From contig JAITFN010000047.1 of NCBI GenBank assembly GCA_031281345.1, positions 1-64,000 on the forward strand: DNA of 64,000 nucleotides, written 5' to 3'. Position 1 is the stretch's first letter; each line of letters begins with the position of its first letter. This stretch comes from Candidatus Fibrimonadaceae bacterium (GTDB taxonomy: Bacteria > Fibrobacterota > Fibrobacteria > Fibrobacterales > Fibrobacteraceae). The notes beneath the pieces were generated by a model. It was not told where the DNA came from. It did not search any database and saw nothing but the letters and a program-made list of their open reading frames with translations. Below are positions 50,572 through 63,411 of the stretch, piece after piece. The translations under genes were made by a program, and so were the position numbers.

Positions 50572-50625
50572 TGAACCAGCAAGGACTTGAACCTTGAACC
50601 CGCGCCTTAAAAGGGGATTTTGAAC
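50572..50625 (-). other. 3' portion of a tRNA-like sequence (possible attachment site)
   Basis: On the minus strand a perfect T-arm (CAAGG, loop TTCAAGT, CCTTG; 50580-50596) is followed by CTGGTTCA, the size of an acceptor 3' strand plus discriminator. Upstream is an anticodon-loop-like CTTTTAA, but the stems around it do not pair. No matching 5' half (GAACCAG) occurs further upstream. It is therefore a fragment, as left when an element integrates into a tRNA gene. Confidence 0.5.
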
Positions 50626-50716: not shown

Positions 50717-51250
50717 TTAAAATTTTTTATCCATATAATTTGCTATAATCCCTGCAACTTCATCCGGTGTTTTTTTGCCTGTATCAATAACCAAATGGTA
50801 GTTATTTTCATCTGCAAAATCAACTCCAAATTTCAAATAAAAACGTTGCCTCATATTTTCGTTTCGCACTCTAACACTTTCAAAATCTGTTTGTTCCATT
50901 TTTCGATCAGATTTGGCAAGCCGTTTAAAAGCTTCCTCTTCGGAAAGGACAAATAAAATATTCAGTGAATTTTCAACAAAATGAAAACCTAACCGAAAAT
51001 CTGCAATGATGTTTTCAGTACTATTGCACAAGTCGCGAAATTTAAAATTGACAAAATCGTCAAGGCCTGGTTCTTCCTTGCACTTTGCTTGAAATTCGTT
51101 TATATTCATTCCGAATTCCCTTTCGGCAAATTCTCTGGTAAAATTTCCAACCGATAAAAATCGGTAACCCAGTTTTTCCGCAAGAATTTTTCCAACAGTA
51201 GATTTGCCAGTTCCAGCATAACCGCTTATGGTTATCTTGTTTGTTTTCAT
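50717..51250 (-). CDS. Nucleoside monophosphate kinase-like P-loop protein
   Basis: The 177-residue protein has Walker A GYAGTGKSTVGKILAEKLG (residues about 10-28), FLSVGNFTREFA and an LID-like KRLAKSDRK, like cytidylate or adenylate kinases. It overlaps the viperin gene by 4 nt. Viperins use nucleoside triphosphates, and prokaryotic viperin genes are known to occur with nucleotide kinases, so this protein probably supplies or processes the substrate or product. Its exact nucleotide is unknown. Confidence 0.88.
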   Translation of the reverse strand: MKTNKITISGYAGTGKSTVGKILAEKLGYRFLSVGNFTREFAEREFGMNINEFQAKCKEEPGLDDFVNFKFRDLCNSTENIIADFRLGFHFVENSLNILFVLSEEEAFKRLAKSDRKMEQTDFESVRVRNENMRQRFYLKFGVDFADENNYHLVIDTGKKTPDEVAGIIANYMDKKF

Positions 51251-52116
51251 AAAACCTCCTCATTTTTTGTGGTGTCTTTGTATCTGCTCATAAACTTTTC
51301 TTTACTGAATTCAATCTGTGAAAGTGCTTTTTCCAAACCGACTTCGTGAATTGGGTCGCTGTAAATATAGTCTTCCTTATTTCCATTTTGGAAAAATCTT
51401 CCACTCGGATCTATCATCAGGTAACTATGAACCATATCATCATTATCTTCAACAATGGTATTTTCTCCAAAAAATCTCTTATTGAGCATCAAGAAATTTG
51501 ACCATTGTTCTTCGGTTATTCCTTGATTATCGCGAAAAGGCAACTGCCTCAGAATTTTTATTCTGTTTGGGGTAAATCCCTGCAATTGCTCAACTACACA
51601 TTCGTTGTAATTGTGCCTATTCACAGTCACATTGAATTTTATGGATATATCAGGATTTTCTACCCTTGCTTTAATTAGCAATTTTTCTACTTGTTCCTTT
51701 TCCAGAACCTTTCTGCTATTGTCGCAACGTCCAATTTTGCGACAAGTATCTGTGTTTAGGCTGTCTATAGAAATTCCAAGCATATCAATATATTGATATA
51801 TGTCTTGATTAAGTTTCAAGAGCGAACCATTGGTAATTATGGACGTTTCAAACTTCATTTCCTTTGCAAGTTTGATAATCGCTAAAAATTTCTCATAAAG
51901 AATTAGCGGTTCACCTCCAGCGAAGTTTATCCTGATAGGCTTTCCCGTTCCGCCGAATTTTCGATAAACGACTTCTTTGTTGGAAAGCTCATTTAGAATT
52001 TTGCGAACAGCATCTTGGTCTTGCCAAATTTCCTTTGGATTGTCCCATTTTGCGAAGCAAAATTCACATTTGTAGTTGCACCTTTCGGTGACGTGCCAGT
52101 TGTAAGCGGTTTGCAT
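51247..52116 (-). CDS. Prokaryotic viperin (radical SAM, ddhNTP synthase)
   Basis: The 289-residue protein has the radical-SAM cluster CNYKCEFC (Cys13, 17, 20) and NFAGGEP. It also carries the viperin features ITNGSLL, LGISIDSLNTDT, IKFNVTVNRHNYNE, RIKILRQLPF and HSYLMIDPSGRFFQNG. This set separates viperins from other radical-SAM enzymes. Viperins turn CTP or other NTPs into 3'-deoxy-3',4'-didehydro nucleotides that stop viral RNA synthesis. It is co-translated with the nucleotide kinase, and 114 bp separate it from the 972-aa gene on the same strand. Confidence 0.92.
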   Translation of the reverse strand: MQTAYNWHVTERCNYKCEFCFAKWDNPKEIWQDQDAVRKILNELSNKEVVYRKFGGTGKPIRINFAGGEPLILYEKFLAIIKLAKEMKFETSIITNGSLLKLNQDIYQYIDMLGISIDSLNTDTCRKIGRCDNSRKVLEKEQVEKLLIKARVENPDISIKFNVTVNRHNYNECVVEQLQGFTPNRIKILRQLPFRDNQGITEEQWSNFLMLNKRFFGENTIVEDNDDMVHSYLMIDPSGRFFQNGNKEDYIYSDPIHEVGLEKALSQIEFSKEKFMSRYKDTTKNEEVL

Positions 52117-52230
52117 ATTGTACTCCTATTGGTTAACATTTTCTTGTTTGAAAAGTGTAGCGAAGCTACCTGAACCAAATCAACATGCTATTGCAAGCCA
52201 ATTCAAAGACTTTTCATATATCACAAAAAA

Positions 52231-55149
52231 TTACTCTTGCATTTTCTTTTTCACCTCTTTATTTTGACCTATTATTAATTCTCTTTTGCACAATTCAATC
52301 CTTTTGATTTCATTTCCTTTATGATACATTTTTTTGAAATTTTCATGATTAAATAAAGAGAGTTGAATAAGAATGTCTTCTTTAATATTCTCGTTTTGAG
52401 GATTTTCTGCCATTTCTCTTAATTTTTTAGGAACTTTGCTCCCTAAAGGTTCTCGTAAATGCCCAAGGGCAATACAAATTCTTCTCAACATATTTTCAGA
52501 GCCATTCCATTCATCTAATATTTTCATTAAATGCTTTGCCCAAATAGCTGGGCGGTCTTTGTAACTATTATTAAAAATTTGCATTCCAAACCAAGGAGCA
52601 TTTATCCATAATTCAGAATCTTTATGTTCCATCACCCATAAGATTGATTTTTCAAAAATACGAGCCATAAATTCAGGTTCTAGAATTGCGTTTAACTTTT
52701 CTAAATCTGTACCTGACAATAGACAATCTGTAATTTCCTTATCTGACCAAGCATAATAATTCATTTTAGGATTCTCCGCTAATGCAATTAAATTATCAAA
52801 TTCTTCTTTTTGGATAGTTTTATTTTTCAAGCAAATTTTAATCTGAAGTTTGCGGCTTTCAGTTAAAAAGGTTTTATATTCGTTGTATAGAATATTTTCT
52901 ATTGCAGTAGAAAACATATAATCCGTTCTGCTTATTAAATATTCGGCGTATTCTGGAGTAATGAAGAGTAATGATTTTTCAAATTTTGGCTGTTCAAATT
53001 TTTCATAGGTTTCTTTCATTAATTTTCGCCAATAATGTTTCCATGAAATATGTATCATTCCACTTTGTCCAGACTGATTTATAAAATCATCAAATGTTGA
53101 TCCGTTATAAAAATAAATTGCCATTATTTGTTCATTTTCATAAGACCATTTAGGAAAGAAAAATGGCTTTTCTAATATTTTGTTTCTAATTTCGTTATAA
53201 ATGTCCTGATTTAAGTAAGGGATATTATAATCCTGTAAATTAAGTTCTTCGCCTTCATATAACCAAAATTCAACTGCAATAATATAATGCTTGTTACGAT
53301 ATTCCTCCAACAAAAACCATGGAACCTTATCTGCATTCAAAATCTCATTTATTTTTATTGCATATTCATTTTCTTGCAGTGGCAGATCATCATCGTCATC
53401 ATCATCTTTGAATAATGAACTCATATTCACTTCTTTGGAATGTTTATCTATTTCTTTTGGCGGCTTTGTTTGTTCATATTTGCGGGATAATTTTTGTAAT
53501 TCCTTTAGTTCATTAAATTGTTTAAATGTCAATTTATAGGTCAAATCTATATTTAATTTTCTAAGTGTTTCTTTAATCTTTTGTCCGAATATCCCATCGT
53601 TATTCATTATGTTAATAATATTATCTAACCACTTTCTAGGGAAAGGCAACTCCCAGCTTTTAATTCTATTGCCACAATGCAAGTATATATCATCATCATG
53701 TGGTTCTATAGATAAGCATATTAGAAATTTATAATATTCTGCATATTCTGAGCCTGTACGTTTATAAAATGGATCTGTGATGCCATTTGGAGTAATTATG
53801 TCATAATAATTTTTGTATAGCATAGCAAAAAGTGCTATTATGACATACTCGTTTTTCAAATGTAAAATTCCCCAAATACATACATCGTTTTTATTTTCAA
53901 TTTCTTGCCTTAATAATTTTATCGGAAAATGTTCTGTCCATTTATTTATAATTTCTATATATAAATCTATATCATAATAACATTTTCTTTTTCCAAGAAT
54001 TTCCCAAATTTTTAAAAATGATTTTTTAGTCCCTATCAATATCAATAGATGTATTTTTTTTGAAATATCTTCTAAGTGTTTTCCTTCATGTGAGATTATT
54101 TCATTTAAAGAAACTTGTAAAATTGGTTCAATTAAATCATCTCTATGCGAAAATATTTCACTTACTTTATTTAAAAAATCCTTATCATAAAAATGGCTTT
54201 TTTGACCATGAATACTATTCCAAATTATCACGTCATCTTCAATTGTTTCTTTTTCAAAATCCAAGAATCTAGTAACTTTGCCACATTTTTTTATCTCTGT
54301 TTTTAATACATAGTTAATAAATTCTTCTTTCGTTTCCCCTGGCCATAACGGAATACCTACTTTCCGTATTATAAACTTATAAATACAATCATTTTTCTCT
54401 TCTGCTGCCTTGTCTAATAATGCCCCGCTATATTTTTTTAATTTTTCAATTATTTCGTTATCAGACATTTCTTGAGACAAAATGTTTTCTGGCAATTCCA
54501 GCTCAGTTTTTTTACTTTCAGTATCAGTTTTTTCTGAATCTTCACTGGGATTAGAGTATTTAAAGCATTTATATTCAAAATTATCTTGGAATATTGGTGG
54601 AATAACTTTTTTTATTTTTTCATATAAATCATTAGAATAGAATTTGTTCGTCCCGTTTTCTTTTAAAAACCAGCGAGGGTCAAAATGAATTACCACCTCA
54701 CTTGCTTTTTCCCGATCTTCATAGTTATCACTGCTACGTTTGCTAATATTCAAATCTTGTGTTTTTTCTTTAATAAATTTGGCAATATCTTCAACAAGTA
54801 ATGATTCTTCTTCTTGTAAAATAATCTGTTCTGTAATTTTGATAATATACTTATCTAATTCTGATAAATAATCATAACTGTACCCGTAATCGGTTTCCGA
54901 ACTAACTTTCCAAAAAAATATTCTTGTATAATCCTTAAAACATTCATATATATTATGATGTCTATAAAGATATCCTTTTTGCGAATACTCATCAAAAAAA
55001 GAATATATTTCTTCTTCCTCTACCTCAATAAGAACGAGATATTTTATAAACTTTTTTGTAGTTTCTTTATCAAAAAGCAATTCATCTTCAAAATCTGCAA
55101 GAATACGAGATATTAAAGCGGCACTTTCTTCATCAGTCATTTTAGACAT
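52231..55149 (-). CDS. Large unknown protein (972 aa) upstream of viperin
   Basis: I do not recognise any domain. The protein is soluble, strongly helical, rich in Lys, Glu, Ile and aromatic residues, and has no P-loop or membrane segment that I can see. A run of seven Asp (LFKDDDDDDDLPLQ, near residue 585) separates two large halves. The C-terminal 200 residues (for example LRRICIALGHLREPLGSKVP) read like helical repeats. It overlaps the 119-aa gene by 8 nt and points into viperin. It is markedly AT-rich. A defence or immunity role is suggested only by its neighbours. Confidence 0.8.
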   Translation of the reverse strand: MSKMTDEESAALISRILADFEDELLFDKETTKKFIKYLVLIEVEEEEIYSFFDEYSQKGYLYRHHNIYECFKDYTRIFFWKVSSETDYGYSYDYLSELDKYIIKITEQIILQEEESLLVEDIAKFIKEKTQDLNISKRSSDNYEDREKASEVVIHFDPRWFLKENGTNKFYSNDLYEKIKKVIPPIFQDNFEYKCFKYSNPSEDSEKTDTESKKTELELPENILSQEMSDNEIIEKLKKYSGALLDKAAEEKNDCIYKFIIRKVGIPLWPGETKEEFINYVLKTEIKKCGKVTRFLDFEKETIEDDVIIWNSIHGQKSHFYDKDFLNKVSEIFSHRDDLIEPILQVSLNEIISHEGKHLEDISKKIHLLILIGTKKSFLKIWEILGKRKCYYDIDLYIEIINKWTEHFPIKLLRQEIENKNDVCIWGILHLKNEYVIIALFAMLYKNYYDIITPNGITDPFYKRTGSEYAEYYKFLICLSIEPHDDDIYLHCGNRIKSWELPFPRKWLDNIINIMNNDGIFGQKIKETLRKLNIDLTYKLTFKQFNELKELQKLSRKYEQTKPPKEIDKHSKEVNMSSLFKDDDDDDDLPLQENEYAIKINEILNADKVPWFLLEEYRNKHYIIAVEFWLYEGEELNLQDYNIPYLNQDIYNEIRNKILEKPFFFPKWSYENEQIMAIYFYNGSTFDDFINQSGQSGMIHISWKHYWRKLMKETYEKFEQPKFEKSLLFITPEYAEYLISRTDYMFSTAIENILYNEYKTFLTESRKLQIKICLKNKTIQKEEFDNLIALAENPKMNYYAWSDKEITDCLLSGTDLEKLNAILEPEFMARIFEKSILWVMEHKDSELWINAPWFGMQIFNNSYKDRPAIWAKHLMKILDEWNGSENMLRRICIALGHLREPLGSKVPKKLREMAENPQNENIKEDILIQLSLFNHENFKKMYHKGNEIKRIELCKRELIIGQNKEVKKKMQE

Positions 55150-55501
55150 ACTTCATCCTCTTTGTGAAATGATAACCACCTAAATAATACTTACATTCAT
55201 AAATATTCAACCATATTCCCTTTTCTTCATATATAATTCTACGCCTGCGTTCCGCAGCCTCATAGCTTTCATATAATTCTTTATATTCTCCATGACTATC
55301 TGTACAATAATCACAAGTCCTACTCGGAGTTTGCCTATCTTTTGGAGAATGATGATATTTCTTGCATTTTTTACATCCATAAGGAACTACGTCTAAACCG
55401 AAGTTATTTTTTACGTATTTAGCAGCTTTTTCTGCTTCTTCCCAAGAGGAATAGACACTAAGTGGCTCACCATTTTTTTTGAAACATGTATTGCTTTTCA
55501 T
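55142..55501 (-). CDS. Zinc-ribbon-like protein with an internal duplication (119 aa)
   Basis: The protein holds two copies of one module: YSSWEEAEKAAKYV...YGCKKCKKYHHSPK and YESYEAAERRRRI...YECKYYLGGYHFTK. The first copy keeps CxxC before a His pair, the second has lost one Cys. CDYC lies between them. This resembles small prokaryotic proteins with a Y-x-C-x-x-C-x-x-W/Y-H motif. It heads the presumed operon with the 972-aa gene (8-nt overlap). The function is unknown; nucleic-acid binding is possible. Confidence 0.75.
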   Translation of the reverse strand: MKSNTCFKKNGEPLSVYSSWEEAEKAAKYVKNNFGLDVVPYGCKKCKKYHHSPKDRQTPSRTCDYCTDSHGEYKELYESYEAAERRRRIIYEEKGIWLNIYECKYYLGGYHFTKRMKYV

Positions 55502-55944
55502 AGCAATCTCCTATTTTGATTGTTCTACACCGTTCTGTTAGAAAAAGCCGTAGGCAGTCTGAACTTATCCGTTATACACTAGGTATCGTGATATCCTAAC
55601 TCTTATATAATATACATTTTTTTTCTCAAAAGAGTAAAAAAATATTTATTTTTTATAAAAGTATTGTAATTCCAACTTTCAAAATATAGTAATTTCTTAA
55701 AACCCTGTCAAGGGGGAATAATCCTATTTTTTTATTTTTTTGTAAAAATCCCGTTTTTTCTGCGTTTTTCAGGATTTTCTCAAAAATTAGTCAATTGAGC
55801 TAATTGTGAATCGATTTAGACCAAAATCTTTATATTGTATATATATATTATTCAGTCAACTTTTCATTATACCCTATCGGTTCCCAAAATAAACTCATAG
55901 CCTTTAAAGGAAAGATAGTAAATTTTTCTAACTTCACAAAGAAT
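55502..55944. other. AT-rich divergent intergenic region
   Basis: 443 bp without a gene separates the minus-strand viperin operon from the plus-strand primase-helicase. It is rich in A/T runs. TATATT lies at about 55831 (CTTTATATTG) on the plus strand, and TATAATATAC near 55605. A small inverted repeat GATTT-N6-AAATC lies near 55812. Nothing else was recognised. Confidence 0.5.
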
Positions 55945-58290
55945 ATGGCAGTCTCCCCCTCAATCCTGGAAAAAGAAATTGCAGAATTAGAGCAATTGCT
56001 AGCCGACAAAAAACGCCAGCTTGAAGAAACAAAAATATCCACAGCAACACCAACGCAGGAACAGATAAACAACCATTCCTCCCCAGAAACCAAAATAGCC
56101 CTATTTCGCTCAATGTTCAAAGGCAGAGAAGATGTCTATGCCAAACGCTTCGAAAGCAAGAAAACTGGAAAATCCGGCTACCAGCCTGTGTGCCGAAATG
56201 AATGGGTAAAAGGAGTGTGCAAAAAACCAAAGGCAAGCTGCGGCAATTGCAACGGGCGTTCATTTGAATCGGTAACCGATGGAGTAATTAGAAACCACCT
56301 TTCCGGTGCCATCGTTATGGGAGTTTATCCCTTATTGCAAAACGAAACCTGCCATTTTCTAGCGGTGGATTTCGACAAGGAGGCGTGGAAAGAAGATGCC
56401 AAAGCCTTTGCCGAAACTTGCAAGCTGGAAGGGATAACCGCCGCCCTGGAACGTTCCCGCTCAGGAAACGGCGCTCATATATGGATTTTCTTTGACAATC
56501 CCGTTCCAGCGGCAAAAGCCAGAAAACTCGGCACTTTTCTAATGACCCGCACTTTGGACAGACGGCCTGAAATAGGACTTGATTCCTTTGACCGCTTTTT
56601 CCCCAATCAGGATACAATGCCCAAAGGCGGCTTCGGCAATTTAATCGCTCTTCCTCTACAAAAAGAAGCAAGGGCAAAAAATCACAGCCTTTTTCTAGAT
56701 GAAAATATGTCTCCTTATGCAGACCAATGGGCTTTTCTCGCTTCCATAAATCGACTGAGCGAAAATAAATTGAACACGCTCATTCAAAACGCAACCCAAC
56801 GGAATGAGCTTTTGCCTGTGAATTACGATTCTACCGAAATAGAAGACGAAACCAAACCTTGGCAGAAAAAATCCACCGTTTTGCCAGCCATAACCGAACC
56901 TATTCCGCAAGAAGTGGAAATCAAGCTAGTTGACCAGCTATATATAAATCACACTGGCCTGCCTCCGATATTGCGCACTCGTATTTTACGGCTTGCCTCT
57001 TTCGCAAACCCCGAATTCTATCAGGCACAGCGAATGAGACTCCCAACCTGGAACAAACCGCATATTCTCTATTGCTATGACTTCTCCGCAAAATATATCG
57101 GCTTGCCCGTGGGATGCTTGGATGGTCTTATGGCAATTCTCGAACATTATCATATCAAGCCAATTCTATCAAACGAACAAAATCGCGGGAAGCATCTTGA
57201 CGTTCAATTTTCCGGTGAACTAAGAGAGAAGCAAAAAGAAGCGTTTCAAAAATTAATGGAAAATCAAACGGGAATACTTTCCGCTTCCACCGCATTTGGC
57301 AAAACCGTTGTGGCACTTCGGGTGATAGCGGAGAGAAAAGTGAACACCGTCATTCTGGTTCATCGCAAACTGCTCGCAGACCAGTGGGTAGAGCGAATAC
57401 ATAATTTCTTAGGAATTCCTAAAAAAGACATAGGCTATTACAGCGGCACAAAGAAAAAACTCACAGGCATTATTGACATTGCGGTTATGCAAAGCGTAGT
57501 CAAGAGAAACAAAGTGGAAGACTGGATATCTGACTATGGTCAGATTATCGTTGATGAATGCCACCATATTTCAGCTAGCTCGTTTGAGCGAATAGTAAGA
57601 AACTGCCCAGCATATTACCGCTTGGGCCTTTCGGCAACGGTTATTCGCAAAGACGGTCAGCACCCCATTGTTTTGATGAATTTAGGAGAAGTCCGCTACT
57701 CCAATACCAGCACAAATGCCGAATTCTTTTTTGTGCAAAAAATATTTCCCCGTCATACCAATTTTCACATGGACAATGAAGACTCCGCAATTCAAGACAT
57801 ATTTCATAACCTTTACCTAAACAAGGAACGGAACGAAATGATTATCAAGGATATTCTCGAAGCATATCGTAAAGGGCGTGAATGTCTTGTGCTAAGCGAG
57901 CGTGTTGAGCATTTGGCTCTGCTGAAAGATGCTTTGGAAAAGCATATACCCTCTCTTTTTGTGTTAAAAGGCGGGCTTGGAAATAAGCAATTGAAAACAA
58001 TTATGGAAGAAATTGAAAATAAACAACCGAATGAGCACAGGGTTATCCTAGCCACAGGAAAATATCTCGGAGAAGGTTTTGATTTGCCAAGCCTTGACAC
58101 CCTGTTTTTGGTTTTTCCTTTTTCGTGGAGAGGTATGCTAATCCAATACACAGGTCGCTTGAATCGTGCTTCTCAAGGAAAAAAGGAGATACGGGTTTAT
58201 GATTATGTTGATGAGAAAGTGCCTGCGTTATTTAGGATGTATGGGAAGCGGTTGAAGGGGTATAAGGCTTTGGGGTTTGTGGTGTCGTAG
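55945..58290 (+). CDS. TOTE-type primase-helicase
   Basis: The 781-residue protein has an N-terminal coiled coil (ILEKEIAELEQLLADKKRQL). An archaeo-eukaryotic-type primase domain (about 45-270) follows, with a Cys cluster (CKKPKASCGNC), FLAVDFDKE (catalytic acids) and RSRSGNGAHIWIF. A superfamily 2 helicase has STAFGKT (Lys453), DECHH (Asp537), GLSATV and a C-terminal domain ending QYTGRLNRASQG. This primase-helicase fusion is the form annotated as the TOTE conflict-system primase. Its base use is closer to core genes than the 972-aa gene. It stands alone and may act against invading DNA. Confidence 0.88.
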   Translation: MAVSPSILEKEIAELEQLLADKKRQLEETKISTATPTQEQINNHSSPETKIALFRSMFKGREDVYAKRFESKKTGKSGYQPVCRNEWVKGVCKKPKASCGNCNGRSFESVTDGVIRNHLSGAIVMGVYPLLQNETCHFLAVDFDKEAWKEDAKAFAETCKLEGITAALERSRSGNGAHIWIFFDNPVPAAKARKLGTFLMTRTLDRRPEIGLDSFDRFFPNQDTMPKGGFGNLIALPLQKEARAKNHSLFLDENMSPYADQWAFLASINRLSENKLNTLIQNATQRNELLPVNYDSTEIEDETKPWQKKSTVLPAITEPIPQEVEIKLVDQLYINHTGLPPILRTRILRLASFANPEFYQAQRMRLPTWNKPHILYCYDFSAKYIGLPVGCLDGLMAILEHYHIKPILSNEQNRGKHLDVQFSGELREKQKEAFQKLMENQTGILSASTAFGKTVVALRVIAERKVNTVILVHRKLLADQWVERIHNFLGIPKKDIGYYSGTKKKLTGIIDIAVMQSVVKRNKVEDWISDYGQIIVDECHHISASSFERIVRNCPAYYRLGLSATVIRKDGQHPIVLMNLGEVRYSNTSTNAEFFFVQKIFPRHTNFHMDNEDSAIQDIFHNLYLNKERNEMIIKDILEAYRKGRECLVLSERVEHLALLKDALEKHIPSLFVLKGGLGNKQLKTIMEEIENKQPNEHRVILATGKYLGEGFDLPSLDTLFLVFPFSWRGMLIQYTGRLNRASQGKKEIRVYDYVDEKVPALFRMYGKRLKGYKALGFVVS

Positions 58291-58344
58291 TGAGAAATTT
58301 ACTATATTTCCTATAAAATACCATTAGGAGATTATAAACTATCT

Positions 58345-60273
58345 ATGGCAAATTGGGACTCAAAGCGTATAGCTGATGCAATAGCTGAAATAGAAGATGA
58401 AAAATTTGTCTTACCAGTAATCCAGCGAGAACTCGTTTGGACTGAAGAAAAGATGGAACTATTATTTGACACCCTTTTAAAGGGAGATAGCTTTGGCGGT
58501 ATAATAGTTATTGAAGAAGAAAAGGACAAACCACCATTATTTAGCTATAGACCTTTTATAAAAGACGCAAAAGATGGAGAGTCTAATCAATCTAGAATTG
58601 ATAGTTTGCCACAAAACCAATTGTTTGTGATTGATGGACAGCAACGGTTGCAATCATTCTATATTGGACTAAATGGTTCTTTTAATGGGAAAATTTTATA
58701 TTTTGATTTATTCAGTGATTATTATAATTCTGAATATGAATTTAAATTTGAAAATGACGAAACTAAACTTCCTAAACAATCTAAAGACAATCTTGAAAGA
58801 CCAATAAAAAATCATTTTTGGTATCCTGCAAAAAACCTTTTAATAAAATTAAAGGAGGGTCGCCCTAACCAAGTTGTAAAAGAAATTATTGAAACAGCAA
58901 ATATTAATGATGATAAGGAAGAGGAATGTATTAGAGAGAATGTATTGTCTTTTTCAGATAGTATTTTGAACAAACTTGCCATAGGAATATCTAAAGTTAA
59001 AGTCGATAAAACTTTGCCCGAGGAAAAAAATAGGCAACGGATTGTTGAAATGTTCAAAAGATTAAATGATGGAGGAACTCGGTTGTTAGCGTTTGATTTA
59101 GTAGCGGCAAAACTAAAAGGATATGAATGGGAAATGGAAGGTTTCTTGAGAGAAATGCAGGAAGAATACCAAAATATTGGTTTAGACCAAGATAATCTTG
59201 TCAAATTAATTTTCCTTTTGCAAGATAATTATGATAAAGAAATGGCAGCAATAGAAAAAACAGATGCTGAATTTGCTATACATAGTAGAACTAAAATTGA
59301 AGCAACGTTAAAGGCTTTAAAAGATTTTCTAAAATATGCAAAATTATATGATTACTATAAAGATAGTAACCGTTCTTTTATACCATTATTTTTTATAGCG
59401 TATCATTTATTCCATAAAAACAAAGACGATAATAGTATTCGCAATTTTTTTGATAACTATGAAACTGGAAATAGCGATTTTGTTTATATACGTATATGGT
59501 TGATTAATTCATTACTCAATGGAGTTTTCAATAGTAGAGGCTCAGGCTGGGTACATAAAACTTGTATTAGAAAAATTCTTAAATTAATCAAAAATTATAA
59601 AGGCAAACCTTTTCCAGTTGATGGATTGTTTAATATTTACACAAATCATCCAGTTACCTTTACGATAAATTATACCAAAGATGATATAGACAAATTAGAT
59701 AAAGATTTTGTTTTTTATTTAATGTATGATTTATCAAGCGATAGTCGAGAAAATCACAAGGATCATATAATGCCAAAAAGCATTCTTGAAAAACGTGGTT
59801 ATCCACAATTTAAGATCAATAGTATAAAAAATAAACAACTTTTAGACCCTAAAACTAATTGTAATGCGAAAAATGGAAAACCATTTGCCCAATGGATCAA
59901 TAACCCTGAGTATGTCAAAGATAGGCATATGTATATGTCACGACATTTAATACCAAACGATGAATCGTTGTGGCACGAAGATCACTTTGAAGATTTTATA
60001 GAAAAACGAGCAGAGTTAATTTTAGAGAGAATATTAAAATATGCTGAGTACAATACTGAAAATGGGAGAAAACTTTCATTTTTACCGAATGAAGAGATAT
60101 TCAGAAAAAAACTTTTTAAAACAGATAAAGCGAACTGTACGATAAAATATGTTGACGGCACAGTGAAAGAATATATTTGGCCTGCTAAAGATTGTAATGA
60201 TGATATAAGAATTAGATTTTTTGAGAATAGCAAAGATATAATAGAAGCTATTTTTGAAGTTAAGGGAGTATAA
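58345..60273 (+). CDS. GmrSD-like DUF262/HNH restriction protein
   Basis: The 642-residue protein begins with a DUF262 domain: LPVIQRELVWTEEKMELLFD and the nucleotide-binding motif DGQQR at residues 97-101. It ends with a DUF1524-like HNH domain around ENHKDHIMPKSILEKRG (His474), NKQLLDPKTNC. That order is the fused form of GmrSD type IV enzymes, which use NTP to cut modified phage DNA. No methyltransferase is needed for such enzymes. A -10 box (TTTACTATATTTCC, near 58308) and GGAG precede the gene. Confidence 0.9.
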   Translation: MANWDSKRIADAIAEIEDEKFVLPVIQRELVWTEEKMELLFDTLLKGDSFGGIIVIEEEKDKPPLFSYRPFIKDAKDGESNQSRIDSLPQNQLFVIDGQQRLQSFYIGLNGSFNGKILYFDLFSDYYNSEYEFKFENDETKLPKQSKDNLERPIKNHFWYPAKNLLIKLKEGRPNQVVKEIIETANINDDKEEECIRENVLSFSDSILNKLAIGISKVKVDKTLPEEKNRQRIVEMFKRLNDGGTRLLAFDLVAAKLKGYEWEMEGFLREMQEEYQNIGLDQDNLVKLIFLLQDNYDKEMAAIEKTDAEFAIHSRTKIEATLKALKDFLKYAKLYDYYKDSNRSFIPLFFIAYHLFHKNKDDNSIRNFFDNYETGNSDFVYIRIWLINSLLNGVFNSRGSGWVHKTCIRKILKLIKNYKGKPFPVDGLFNIYTNHPVTFTINYTKDDIDKLDKDFVFYLMYDLSSDSRENHKDHIMPKSILEKRGYPQFKINSIKNKQLLDPKTNCNAKNGKPFAQWINNPEYVKDRHMYMSRHLIPNDESLWHEDHFEDFIEKRAELILERILKYAEYNTENGRKLSFLPNEEIFRKKLFKTDKANCTIKYVDGTVKEYIWPAKDCNDDIRIRFFENSKDIIEAIFEVKGV

Positions 60274-60388
60274 ATTGGCGTTTATATCAGGGAAAATTAC
60301 CAATAGAAGAATTCAATGAAACGGTTTTGGGCTGTTGTAACCAAAGGGAACCGAAACAGAAAAGACATCGGAATCCTATGTTGTCAAA
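60274..60388 (+). pseudogene. Possible coding remnant after the GmrSD gene
   Basis: One plus-strand frame from about 60275 is open for roughly 38 codons without a start and reads protein-like (RLYQGKLPIEEFNETVLG). I cannot assign it. It may be the tail of a deleted gene, since two other gene fragments lie just downstream. Confidence 0.25.
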
Positions 60389-60538
60389 CTAGCAGATAAG
60401 CTGACGTATTAATCTTTGATATTTTTGAATTTCTTTTGTTTTAATTTCTTTTGGGTAATAATTCTCAAACTGCTCTAAAAATTGGCTTCTCCCACCAACC
60501 CATTTTATAAAAGGTTTTGCTGGTTTGAGATTCATTTT
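60389..60538 (-). pseudogene. N-terminal remnant of a Dam-type (D12 class) adenine methyltransferase
   Basis: From ATG 60538 the minus strand encodes 49 residues starting MNLKPAKPFIKWVGGRSQFL then EQFENYYPKEI. This is the N-terminus of D12 class N6-adenine methyltransferases (KPF-hK-W-x-GGK-x-x-L, the SAM site). The frame stops where about 200 more residues should follow. The family GGK is GGR here. A longer open frame reaches 60595, but the match starts at 60538. Confidence 0.65.
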
Positions 60539-60683
60539 AAGGAATATAAAAATATTTTGATATATACTATTAGCATTATGCGGTTGCAATTTCAAAGTTT
60601 AACTGTATATAGTGAAAGATAAATCTGGCGGCAGAAGCTATTTTTATTAAAATTTACTATATTTTAAACTAACAGGTAAAAAC

Positions 60684-60800
60684 ATGCAAAATATATATAT
60701 TCCGCCAATAAAAAGTCAAGGTATAAAAATGAAATTTGTAGAGTGGATTAAATATGGAGTTTCCAATGTGATAGCAGATATGGACAAAATGATATTATGA
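60684..60800 (+). pseudogene. N-terminal remnant of a second DNA adenine methyltransferase
   Basis: A 38-codon frame begins MQNIYIPPIKSQGIKMKFVE and stops at TGA 60798-60800. IPPIKSQGIK-x-K-hV is the start of another group of adenine-specific methyltransferases, followed normally by an EPFMGSG motif that is missing. A -10 box (TTTACTATATTTT, near 60655) precedes it, so the original gene start is intact while the body is gone. It ends 10 nt before the helicase gene. Confidence 0.55.
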
Positions 60801-60810
60801 GAAATTTATA

Positions 60811-63411
60811 ATGGAAAGTTTTATTTTTATAGCTACAATTATTTATGTTTGTTATTTCATAATTAGTAACTATGGCGATAAAATACTTAGCAGAGTAAGC
60901 AATTCATACAAGCAAAAAATCGAAGAGTATGAATATATATGTTCATTACTTGTTAAAGAAACATTTGACGCCATTGAAGAAATTGATTTGTTCTTGCGAT
61001 CGTCAGATTCTTTTCTCAACTTAGAACAAGCTAAACATATATTAAACGGCAAAAGATACTTATATGACAAGCTATTCCAAATCAATCACAAAAAACTTAG
61101 AAAGACCGCGGATTACCAAAAACTCATATATGCAAAAGATATTTTTGTTGATAAATATAAGTCATTTGTACAACTCGTGCTTAGACATAATGAACGCATA
61201 TTAGAGAAGCAATTTTTAGATGCTTGTAAGCTGGTAGGAGATGTTGAAGGAATTAAACTTGATAAACAACAAATGCAATGCATTATAAAAGAAGCGCACA
61301 ACCATTTGGTAATTGCAGGAGCTGGAACAGGCAAAACAACAACAATTATCGGGAAAATTAAGTTTTTGCTTAATAAAGGTATATGCAAACCAAATGAAAT
61401 ACTTGTATTGTCCTTCACTAATGCTTCGGCATCCGAGATGAAAGAACGCATTGAAAAAGAAACAAACCAGCCGATAGAGGCTTCTACATTTCACAAATTA
61501 GGACTAAATATCATCGAATCCACAGATGGAATTGTCCCAAAGATTACGCAAATTAAGCTACCTTCTTTCATAAAAAACCAATTGTCCAGTCTGATGAAAC
61601 AAATTGGTTATCTGCAACAATTATCCACCTATCTGTTATTCAATTCAGTAGTCGCAAAATCAGAATTTGAATTTGCGAATGAAACAGAATATAAAGAATA
61701 TTTGGAATGCAATCCTCCCACAACTTTAAAAAACGAGAAAGTAAAGAGTTATGGCGAATTGGATATTGCAAATTTTTTATCGCAAAATGGAATAGCATAC
61801 GAATATGAATCCGCTTATTCCATAGATACAAGAACTTCCGAGTATGGGCAATATCACCCAGATTTTTATTTGCCCACATATAAAGTATATATTGAATATT
61901 TTGGCATTGACAGCAATGGGCAAGTACCTGCATATTTTCACGGAAGGAATGGAAAAAATGCATCGGAGATATACCAAGAATCAATGAGTTGGAAACGTAA
62001 ATTGCATAAGGAACACAATACAATAATGCTGGAATGTTTTGCTTATGAAAAATTTTCTGGTGATTTGCTCAAAAACCTTGAGGAAAAATTAGAAAAACAA
62101 GGTGTTATTTTCAAGCCTAAAGCACCCAACGAAATACTTGATGAATTAATGGCAAGCGAAAAATCTTTAATAGATGGTTTTGTTGAATTGGCAGGAACAA
62201 TTATTAATTTAATTAAAAGCAATGCATACACTATTGCAAAAGTACGAAGCATGATTATGGCAAGCCGTATGTCTGTTGAATCCAGTTTAACTCTTTTGGA
62301 TTTGATAGAACCAATATACCAAGCTTATTCTCAGACGCTTGCGGAAAGAAATGAAATTGACTTTAACGATATGATTAACATTGCTACTGAATATGTAACG
62401 GAAATGAAATATTGCCATAATTATAAATTTGCGATAGTTGATGAGTATCAGGATATTTCTAAATCTAGGTTTTCCCTGCTCAAGGCTATGCGAAATGCTA
62501 ACGATTACTCGCTATTTTGTGTTGGAGATGACTGGCAGAGTATTTACAGGTTTGCTGGAAGCGATATAGGTTTTATTCTGAATTTTGAGAAATATTGGGG
62601 TATTTCAGAGAGCAGCAAAATTGAAACAACTTATAGATTTGCCCAAAAATTGATAGATATCAGCGGTGAATTCATTATGCAAAATCCAAACCAAGTGAAA
62701 AAATCCATTAAAGGAAATCAAATAGATAAATTTTTCCCACTTGAAGAAATCAACGGCTATACAGAATTTAAACTTGTAGATTTTTTGCTTGAAAAATTAA
62801 AGGATTTGCCACAAAACAGTTCTGTGTTTTTTATTGGGCGATATAATTTTGATATTGATTTTATCAAGAATAGTGCAAATTTCTCATGCAGTTATGATAA
62901 TCATGCAAATCAAACTTGTCTTGCATTTCAGAATCGCAGAGATTTAAAATTAACTTTTTTAACTGCACATAGTTCCAAAGGATTGCAGGCAGATTATGTA
63001 TTTATTATCAACAATAAAAAATCACGTATGGGATTTCCAAGCAAAATGCAAGATGCTCCTATATTAGACTTGCTTCTAGAAAACAGTGACAATTATCCAT
63101 ATTCTGAAGAACGCAGATTATTCTATGTTGCACTTACAAGAGCAAAGAAAAAAGTTATTTTGCTTACGCTCAAAGACAAAGAGTCTGAGTTTGTCACAGA
63201 ATTAAGGAACAAGTATAAAAAGGAGATGGAACGAGAGACTTTTACTTGTCCGCGTTGCGGAGGTCGTCTTTCTAAGAAATCTGGACCTTATGGTATTTTT
63301 TTAGGTTGCGACAACTGGAAACGCAAGGGTTGTCCATATACACGGACACTCACAAGAGGAAAGAGGATGGAAACAAATCAACTTATTGATAATAATTTAG
63401 TATATTATTAG
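60811..63411 (+). CDS. UvrD-like helicase with nuclease-like insertion and topoisomerase-type zinc finger
   Basis: The 866-residue protein has a hydrophobic N-terminal segment (FIFIATIIYVCYFII), a superfamily 1 helicase core with GAGTGKTTT (Lys175), VLSFTNASASEM, AIVDEYQDIS, GDDWQSIYRFAG and FYVALTRAKK, and an insertion at about 310-420. The insertion has YHPDFYLPTYKVYIEYFG, like a PD-(D/E)xK nuclease fold. The C-terminal zinc finger CPRCGGRL...CDNWKRKGCPYT (about 813-845) is of topoisomerase I type. An OLD-family gene follows 30 nt later; the helicase-OLD pairing is that of Gabija and class 2 OLD systems. Confidence 0.88.
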   Translation: MESFIFIATIIYVCYFIISNYGDKILSRVSNSYKQKIEEYEYICSLLVKETFDAIEEIDLFLRSSDSFLNLEQAKHILNGKRYLYDKLFQINHKKLRKTADYQKLIYAKDIFVDKYKSFVQLVLRHNERILEKQFLDACKLVGDVEGIKLDKQQMQCIIKEAHNHLVIAGAGTGKTTTIIGKIKFLLNKGICKPNEILVLSFTNASASEMKERIEKETNQPIEASTFHKLGLNIIESTDGIVPKITQIKLPSFIKNQLSSLMKQIGYLQQLSTYLLFNSVVAKSEFEFANETEYKEYLECNPPTTLKNEKVKSYGELDIANFLSQNGIAYEYESAYSIDTRTSEYGQYHPDFYLPTYKVYIEYFGIDSNGQVPAYFHGRNGKNASEIYQESMSWKRKLHKEHNTIMLECFAYEKFSGDLLKNLEEKLEKQGVIFKPKAPNEILDELMASEKSLIDGFVELAGTIINLIKSNAYTIAKVRSMIMASRMSVESSLTLLDLIEPIYQAYSQTLAERNEIDFNDMINIATEYVTEMKYCHNYKFAIVDEYQDISKSRFSLLKAMRNANDYSLFCVGDDWQSIYRFAGSDIGFILNFEKYWGISESSKIETTYRFAQKLIDISGEFIMQNPNQVKKSIKGNQIDKFFPLEEINGYTEFKLVDFLLEKLKDLPQNSSVFFIGRYNFDIDFIKNSANFSCSYDNHANQTCLAFQNRRDLKLTFLTAHSSKGLQADYVFIINNKKSRMGFPSKMQDAPILDLLLENSDNYPYSEERRLFYVALTRAKKKVILLTLKDKESEFVTELRNKYKKEMERETFTCPRCGGRLSKKSGPYGIFLGCDNWKRKGCPYTRTLTRGKRMETNQLIDNNLVYY

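Follow-up and report, generated by a model that had tools for sequence, protein, structure and literature searches.

Prokaryotic viperins are described together with nucleotide kinases (Bernheim 2021, as cited in PMC10865869), and PADLOC models such systems as pVip, pVip-kinase and VakA. Genes for RelE and for HicA of classes 9 and 10 also adjoin pVip, and it has been proposed that HicA and RelE aid viperin by arresting translation (Gerdes 2024, PMC10865869). At other loci a large protein adjoins viperin: a viperin-associated NERD protein (PADLOC PDLC02906) or an ankyrin protein.

The window analyzed here comprises 64,000 nucleotides from a Candidatus Fibrimonadaceae bacterium (contig C46, JAITFN010000047.1, of a 2.56 Mb Fibrobacterota MAG that is 84% complete). 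It shares with the pVip-kinase systems an overlapping viperin and kinase with strong model matches. It differs from them in having two extra genes upstream that are in no library we used. All four ORFs lie on the minus strand in the order 119-aa, 972-aa, viperin, kinase. Their coordinates, and the overlaps of 8 nt between the 119-aa and 972-aa genes and of 4 nt between the viperin and kinase genes, are exactly those given by a sequence-only reading of this DNA. The row and its surroundings are as follows (evidence in brackets).

50717–51250, minus strand: CMP-kinase-like nucleotide kinase, 177 aa (PF13189, PADLOC pVip-kinase, VakA)
51247–52116, minus strand: viperin, radical-SAM nucleotide dehydratase, 289 aa (NF038283, PADLOC pVip, PDB 6q2p)
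52117–52230, minus strand: 114-nt gap that separates viperin from the 972-aa gene (promoter/terminator scan, folding)
52231–55149, minus strand: large 972-aa protein, predicted all-helical (homologues in genomes G015 and G030)
55142–55501, minus strand: 119-aa protein with a tandem small Cys/His domain, first in the row (family invariance, viperin-adjacent relatives)
55683–55711, minus strand: promoter-like site ahead of the row (TTGACA-17-TATATT, 11/12)
55945–58290, plus strand: AEP-TOTE primase-helicase
58345–60273, plus strand: GmrSD/HEC-05 gene

Judged by sequence, the identities of the viperin and its CMP-kinase-like partner are certain. The viperin matches NCBIfam NF038283 with an E-value of 6.4e-91 and 304.4 bits (curated cut-off 180), the PADLOC pVip model at 1.1e-87 and the PDB viperin 6q2p at 7e-19. 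Its CxxxCxxC cluster reads CNYKCEFC; it also carries NFAGGEP, and the viperin-type C-terminal motif SYLMIDPxGRFF is kept among its relatives. The adjoining gene encodes a P-loop NMP kinase (Walker A GYAGTGKST) that matches Cytidylate_kin2 (PF13189) at 2.2e-16, pVip-kinase at 2.5e-61 and VakA at 1.9e-21. Both had been correctly recognized, the viperin by its specific motifs and the kinase as its overlapping partner. By homology, the viperin should make a ddh-nucleotide and the kinase should feed its substrate; since CMP kinases are this kinase's closest match, ddhCTP would be the likeliest product.

In all four genes, a Shine-Dalgarno-like AGGAG or GAGG lies a few nucleotides 5' of the ATG. A minus-strand scan of the gap at 52117–52230 found no promoter-like or terminator-like site, and its folding is ordinary (z -0.43). 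The one terminator candidate there, a 5-bp hairpin (GTAGC-TTC-GCTAC), lacks a proper T run and was rejected. The sigma-70-like site lies about 180 nt 5' of the 119-aa gene; since promoter-like sites in the region number at chance level, it is only a candidate promoter. The leader between them (55502–55676, minus strand) folds somewhat above shuffles (z -1.94, 6/200), and an Rfam search of the region gave no match. With no strong terminator or promoter splitting the row, a single transcription unit of the four genes, as had been proposed, is plausible. The 119-aa and 972-aa families proved not to be exclusive partners of viperin.

The 119-aa protein, which the sequence-only reading had called duplicated and zinc-ribbon-like, consists of two copies of a small Cys/His domain of the type Y..S..EA...A.......L..Y.C..C..WHL.P. 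The pattern is C43xxC46xxxH50, C66xxC69 and C103...H111, and C43, C46, H50, C66, C103 and H111 are invariant across the family. The invariant residues may be metal ligands, yet no Pfam family or zinc ribbon scored above cut-off, and the weak PHROG matches were to PHROGs of unknown function. No similarity to any toxin, including HicA and RelE/ParE, was detected in Pfam, NCBIfam, PADLOC or a PDB profile search. A profile of the family (119-type, or Zn-type, genes) had 35 matches in 31 of 168 Fibrobacterota genomes. Seven full two-domain proteins in the phylum, the window's included, and one in Treponema, all with the same Cys/His residues, show that the ORF is a real gene.

Most of these matches (31 of 35) lie away from viperin. 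The four within 4 kb of one are in the window, G151 (122 nt away), G030 (one-domain, 297 nt) and G072, where a decayed, truncated copy lies 1.4 kb from viperin. Elsewhere, a relative in G098 adjoins an OLD/AriA-like ATPase, and others sit in what we take, from reading the neighboring sequences, to be housekeeping settings, beside YbeY in G007 and beside SpmAB-like/HU genes in G024 and G025. The family is therefore not viperin-specific. In another phylum, a 119-type gene heads a viperin-ending operon on the Treponema saccharophilum plasmid pTS2 (L058, 8980–14081), followed by a 79-aa gene and by genes for a nucleotidyltransferase, a PEP/pyruvate-binding protein and a cysteine desulfurase that perhaps supplies Fe-S to the viperin. 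The 79-aa gene and a HicA-like gene share a PHROG match. Genes of 116–119 aa that precede viperin on Moraxella and Acinetobacter plasmids were considered as relatives of the 119-aa protein and discarded; the Acinetobacter type weakly resembles DUF4258.

For the 972-aa protein we found no match in Pfam, PADLOC, NCBIfam, PHROGs or PDB sequences, in agreement with the earlier assignment to no recognized family, and similarity to any antitoxin or sensor was not detected. Its family occurs in 3 of the 168 Fibrobacterota genomes: the window's, G015 (JAAYEB010000042; 846 aa, 29% identity over the alignment) and G030 (WRFX01000105; truncated at the contig end, 724 aa or more, 36% identity over the alignment). 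These two distant homologues align over most of its length, with about 90 invariant columns, many in the C-terminal quarter, which shows that the ORF is a real gene. A G113 match (E 0.0067) contains an internal stop and was taken as chance. Outside the phylum, searches of phages, plasmids, IMG/VR and GTDB (the last by degenerate patterns only) found no relatives. AlphaFold2 with the three sequences modeled the whole protein as nearly all helix at a pLDDT of 39.6, with the best confidence in the C-terminal ~140 residues. The C-terminal 246 residues modeled separately reached a pLDDT of 58, and their best Foldseek match in the PDB was to generic helical repeats (E 0.19); at this confidence the models leave room for a known fold, such as that of helical-repeat or STAND sensor families. 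The protein resembles the viperin-associated NERD and ankyrin proteins in being a large protein in a viperin row, and differs from them in having no NERD or ankyrin match.

Across the 168 Fibrobacterota genomes we found 13 viperins, eight of which have a small gene of Zn, HicA or ParE type within about 3 kb. An 80-aa HicA-like gene, so labeled for its size and a GKHxxxxH motif and not confirmed by profile searches, lies within 200 nt of viperin in five genomes (G072, G130, G066, G096 and G151). ParE-like genes are beside viperin at two loci (G020 and G030), and Zn-type genes at four. Kinases are present at three (the window, G050 and G146), none of which has a HicA- or ParE-type gene. Ankyrin-type large proteins adjoin viperin in G096, G066 and G020 (the last with a 14-nt overlap), and in G027 its large neighbor is a NERD protein. 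Locus L039 (5966–9434) combines a ParE-like gene and viperin with a 787-aa ankyrin protein, whose gene has a 14-nt overlap with that of viperin. Within 4 kb of viperin we counted 4 of 35 Zn-type, 6 of 36 HicA-like and 2 of 3 972-type genes, against 0.007, 0.007 and 0.0006 expected under a Poisson model that takes genes as randomly scattered; since defense genes cluster in islands, the resulting P values overstate the link to viperin.

The 119-aa and 972-aa families occur together at two loci, the window and G030, both beside viperin, so the pair is not found mostly away from it. In G030, which belongs to another family of the phylum, the order on one strand is 972-type homologue, one-domain Zn-type gene, ParE-like gene, viperin. 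Looked for beside other viperins, as the sequence-only reading had advised, the pair thus recurs in G030. The nearest viperin-kinase relative, in G050 from the same genus as the window (viperin 55% identical), lacks the pair. G015, a genome that is 97% complete, has a 972-type gene but yielded no viperin. In the viperin tree the window pairs with G050 (98/94), not with G030, inside a five-member clade that also holds G030, G020 and G146. Partners therefore change within this clade; either the pair is ancestral and disappeared from the remaining members, or it was acquired on two occasions. In G015 (L007, 9642–10200) the 972-type gene is followed by small ParE-like and RMF-like genes, and in all three cases a small Zn- or ParE-type gene directly adjoins the 972-type gene. 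Upstream of the G015 gene is a KAP NTPase/sulfatase-modifying-factor-like protein.

On the simplest account, viperin and kinase form a core whose accessory genes are exchangeable. We tentatively favor a reading in which the 119-aa and 972-aa genes are an exchangeable, viperin-independent accessory module, probably toxin-antitoxin-like or abortive, that has joined this core. Close behind comes the possibility that the pair lies upstream of viperin-kinase by chance, the two genes being a separate system or having no defensive use in a defense-island neighborhood. Defense genes do flank the row on the other strand: besides the TOTE primase-helicase and GmrSD, there is an ORF at 60811–63411 (plus strand) that we read as a UvrD-like helicase, and the stretch 55945–63411 is a defense island. 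The viperin-kinase of G050 without the two genes, the big gene of G015 with no viperin found and the 114-nt gap that parts the two halves all agree with mere neighborhood. Against it, the adjacency is repeated in G030 with a different gene order, and Zn-type genes adjoin viperin in G151 and Treponema.

It had also been proposed that the two proteins sense infection or protect the host from the chain-terminating nucleotide. That they shield the polymerase of the host or remove the ddh-nucleotide now seems highly improbable. Position in the row is the sole point in favor, whereas 11 of the 13 viperin loci lack a 972-type gene and no nucleotide-hydrolase or polymerase-binding domain was found in Pfam, PADLOC or NCBIfam. 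The 972-type gene in G015, 97% complete and with no viperin found, means that such a protein is unlikely to be needed only against viperin's product, and speaks for a toxin-antitoxin-like or abortive module rather than a protective one. A regulatory role, with two non-toxic proteins sensing infection and switching viperin on, is unlikely but less so. It would suit two same-strand genes that precede viperin, and large ankyrin-type proteins do adjoin viperin in three genomes (G020, with the overlap noted above, G096 and G066); a search for a DNA-binding domain found none, however, and the 972 family has a member in G015, with no viperin found there for it to control.

Under the accessory-module reading, the four genes would share one promoter 5' of the 119-aa gene, and translation of the 972-aa gene would be coupled to that of the 119-aa gene. 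The 119-aa protein may fill the role proposed for small HicA-, RelE- or ParE-type proteins beside other viperins and slow translation during infection by targeting RNA or ribosomes, and the large helical protein would sense infection or restrain the small one. The likeness to HicA and RelE beside pVip (PMC10865869) is a small-protein gene near viperin, and with it the idea of a translation-targeting helper. The difference is that the window's small gene encodes a tandem Cys/His protein without HicA or RelE similarity and lies 3 kb upstream, with the 972-aa gene between. Two things are new here: another type of small viperin partner, the tandem Cys/His protein, and the family of the large 972-aa protein. 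A stronger version, in which the two form a previously undescribed non-HicA, non-RelE anti-phage module that acts with viperin's nucleotide as a four-gene system and in relatives such as G015 would also function on its own, is doubtful. The locus bears on how bacteria switch viperin on and on why its neighbors are so often small RNase-type proteins, and the set is so compact that its four genes could be deleted one by one and their parts in phage protection compared.

At 50572–50617 (minus strand), roughly 100 nt past the kinase gene, a stretch resembles a tRNA 3' half (CAAGGTTCAAGTCCTTGCTGGTTCA) and could be the remnant of an integration site. A tRNA-type integration repeat was rejected, as neither a whole tRNA nor a second copy of the stretch was found in the incomplete window genome. 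Small HicA-like ORFs directly downstream of viperin were also seen on an IMG/VR contig (IMGVR_UViG_3300026534_000064; L081, 8001–9064) and a Sulfitobacter plasmid (L070, 5986–7085), one of which has phage tail-type genes.
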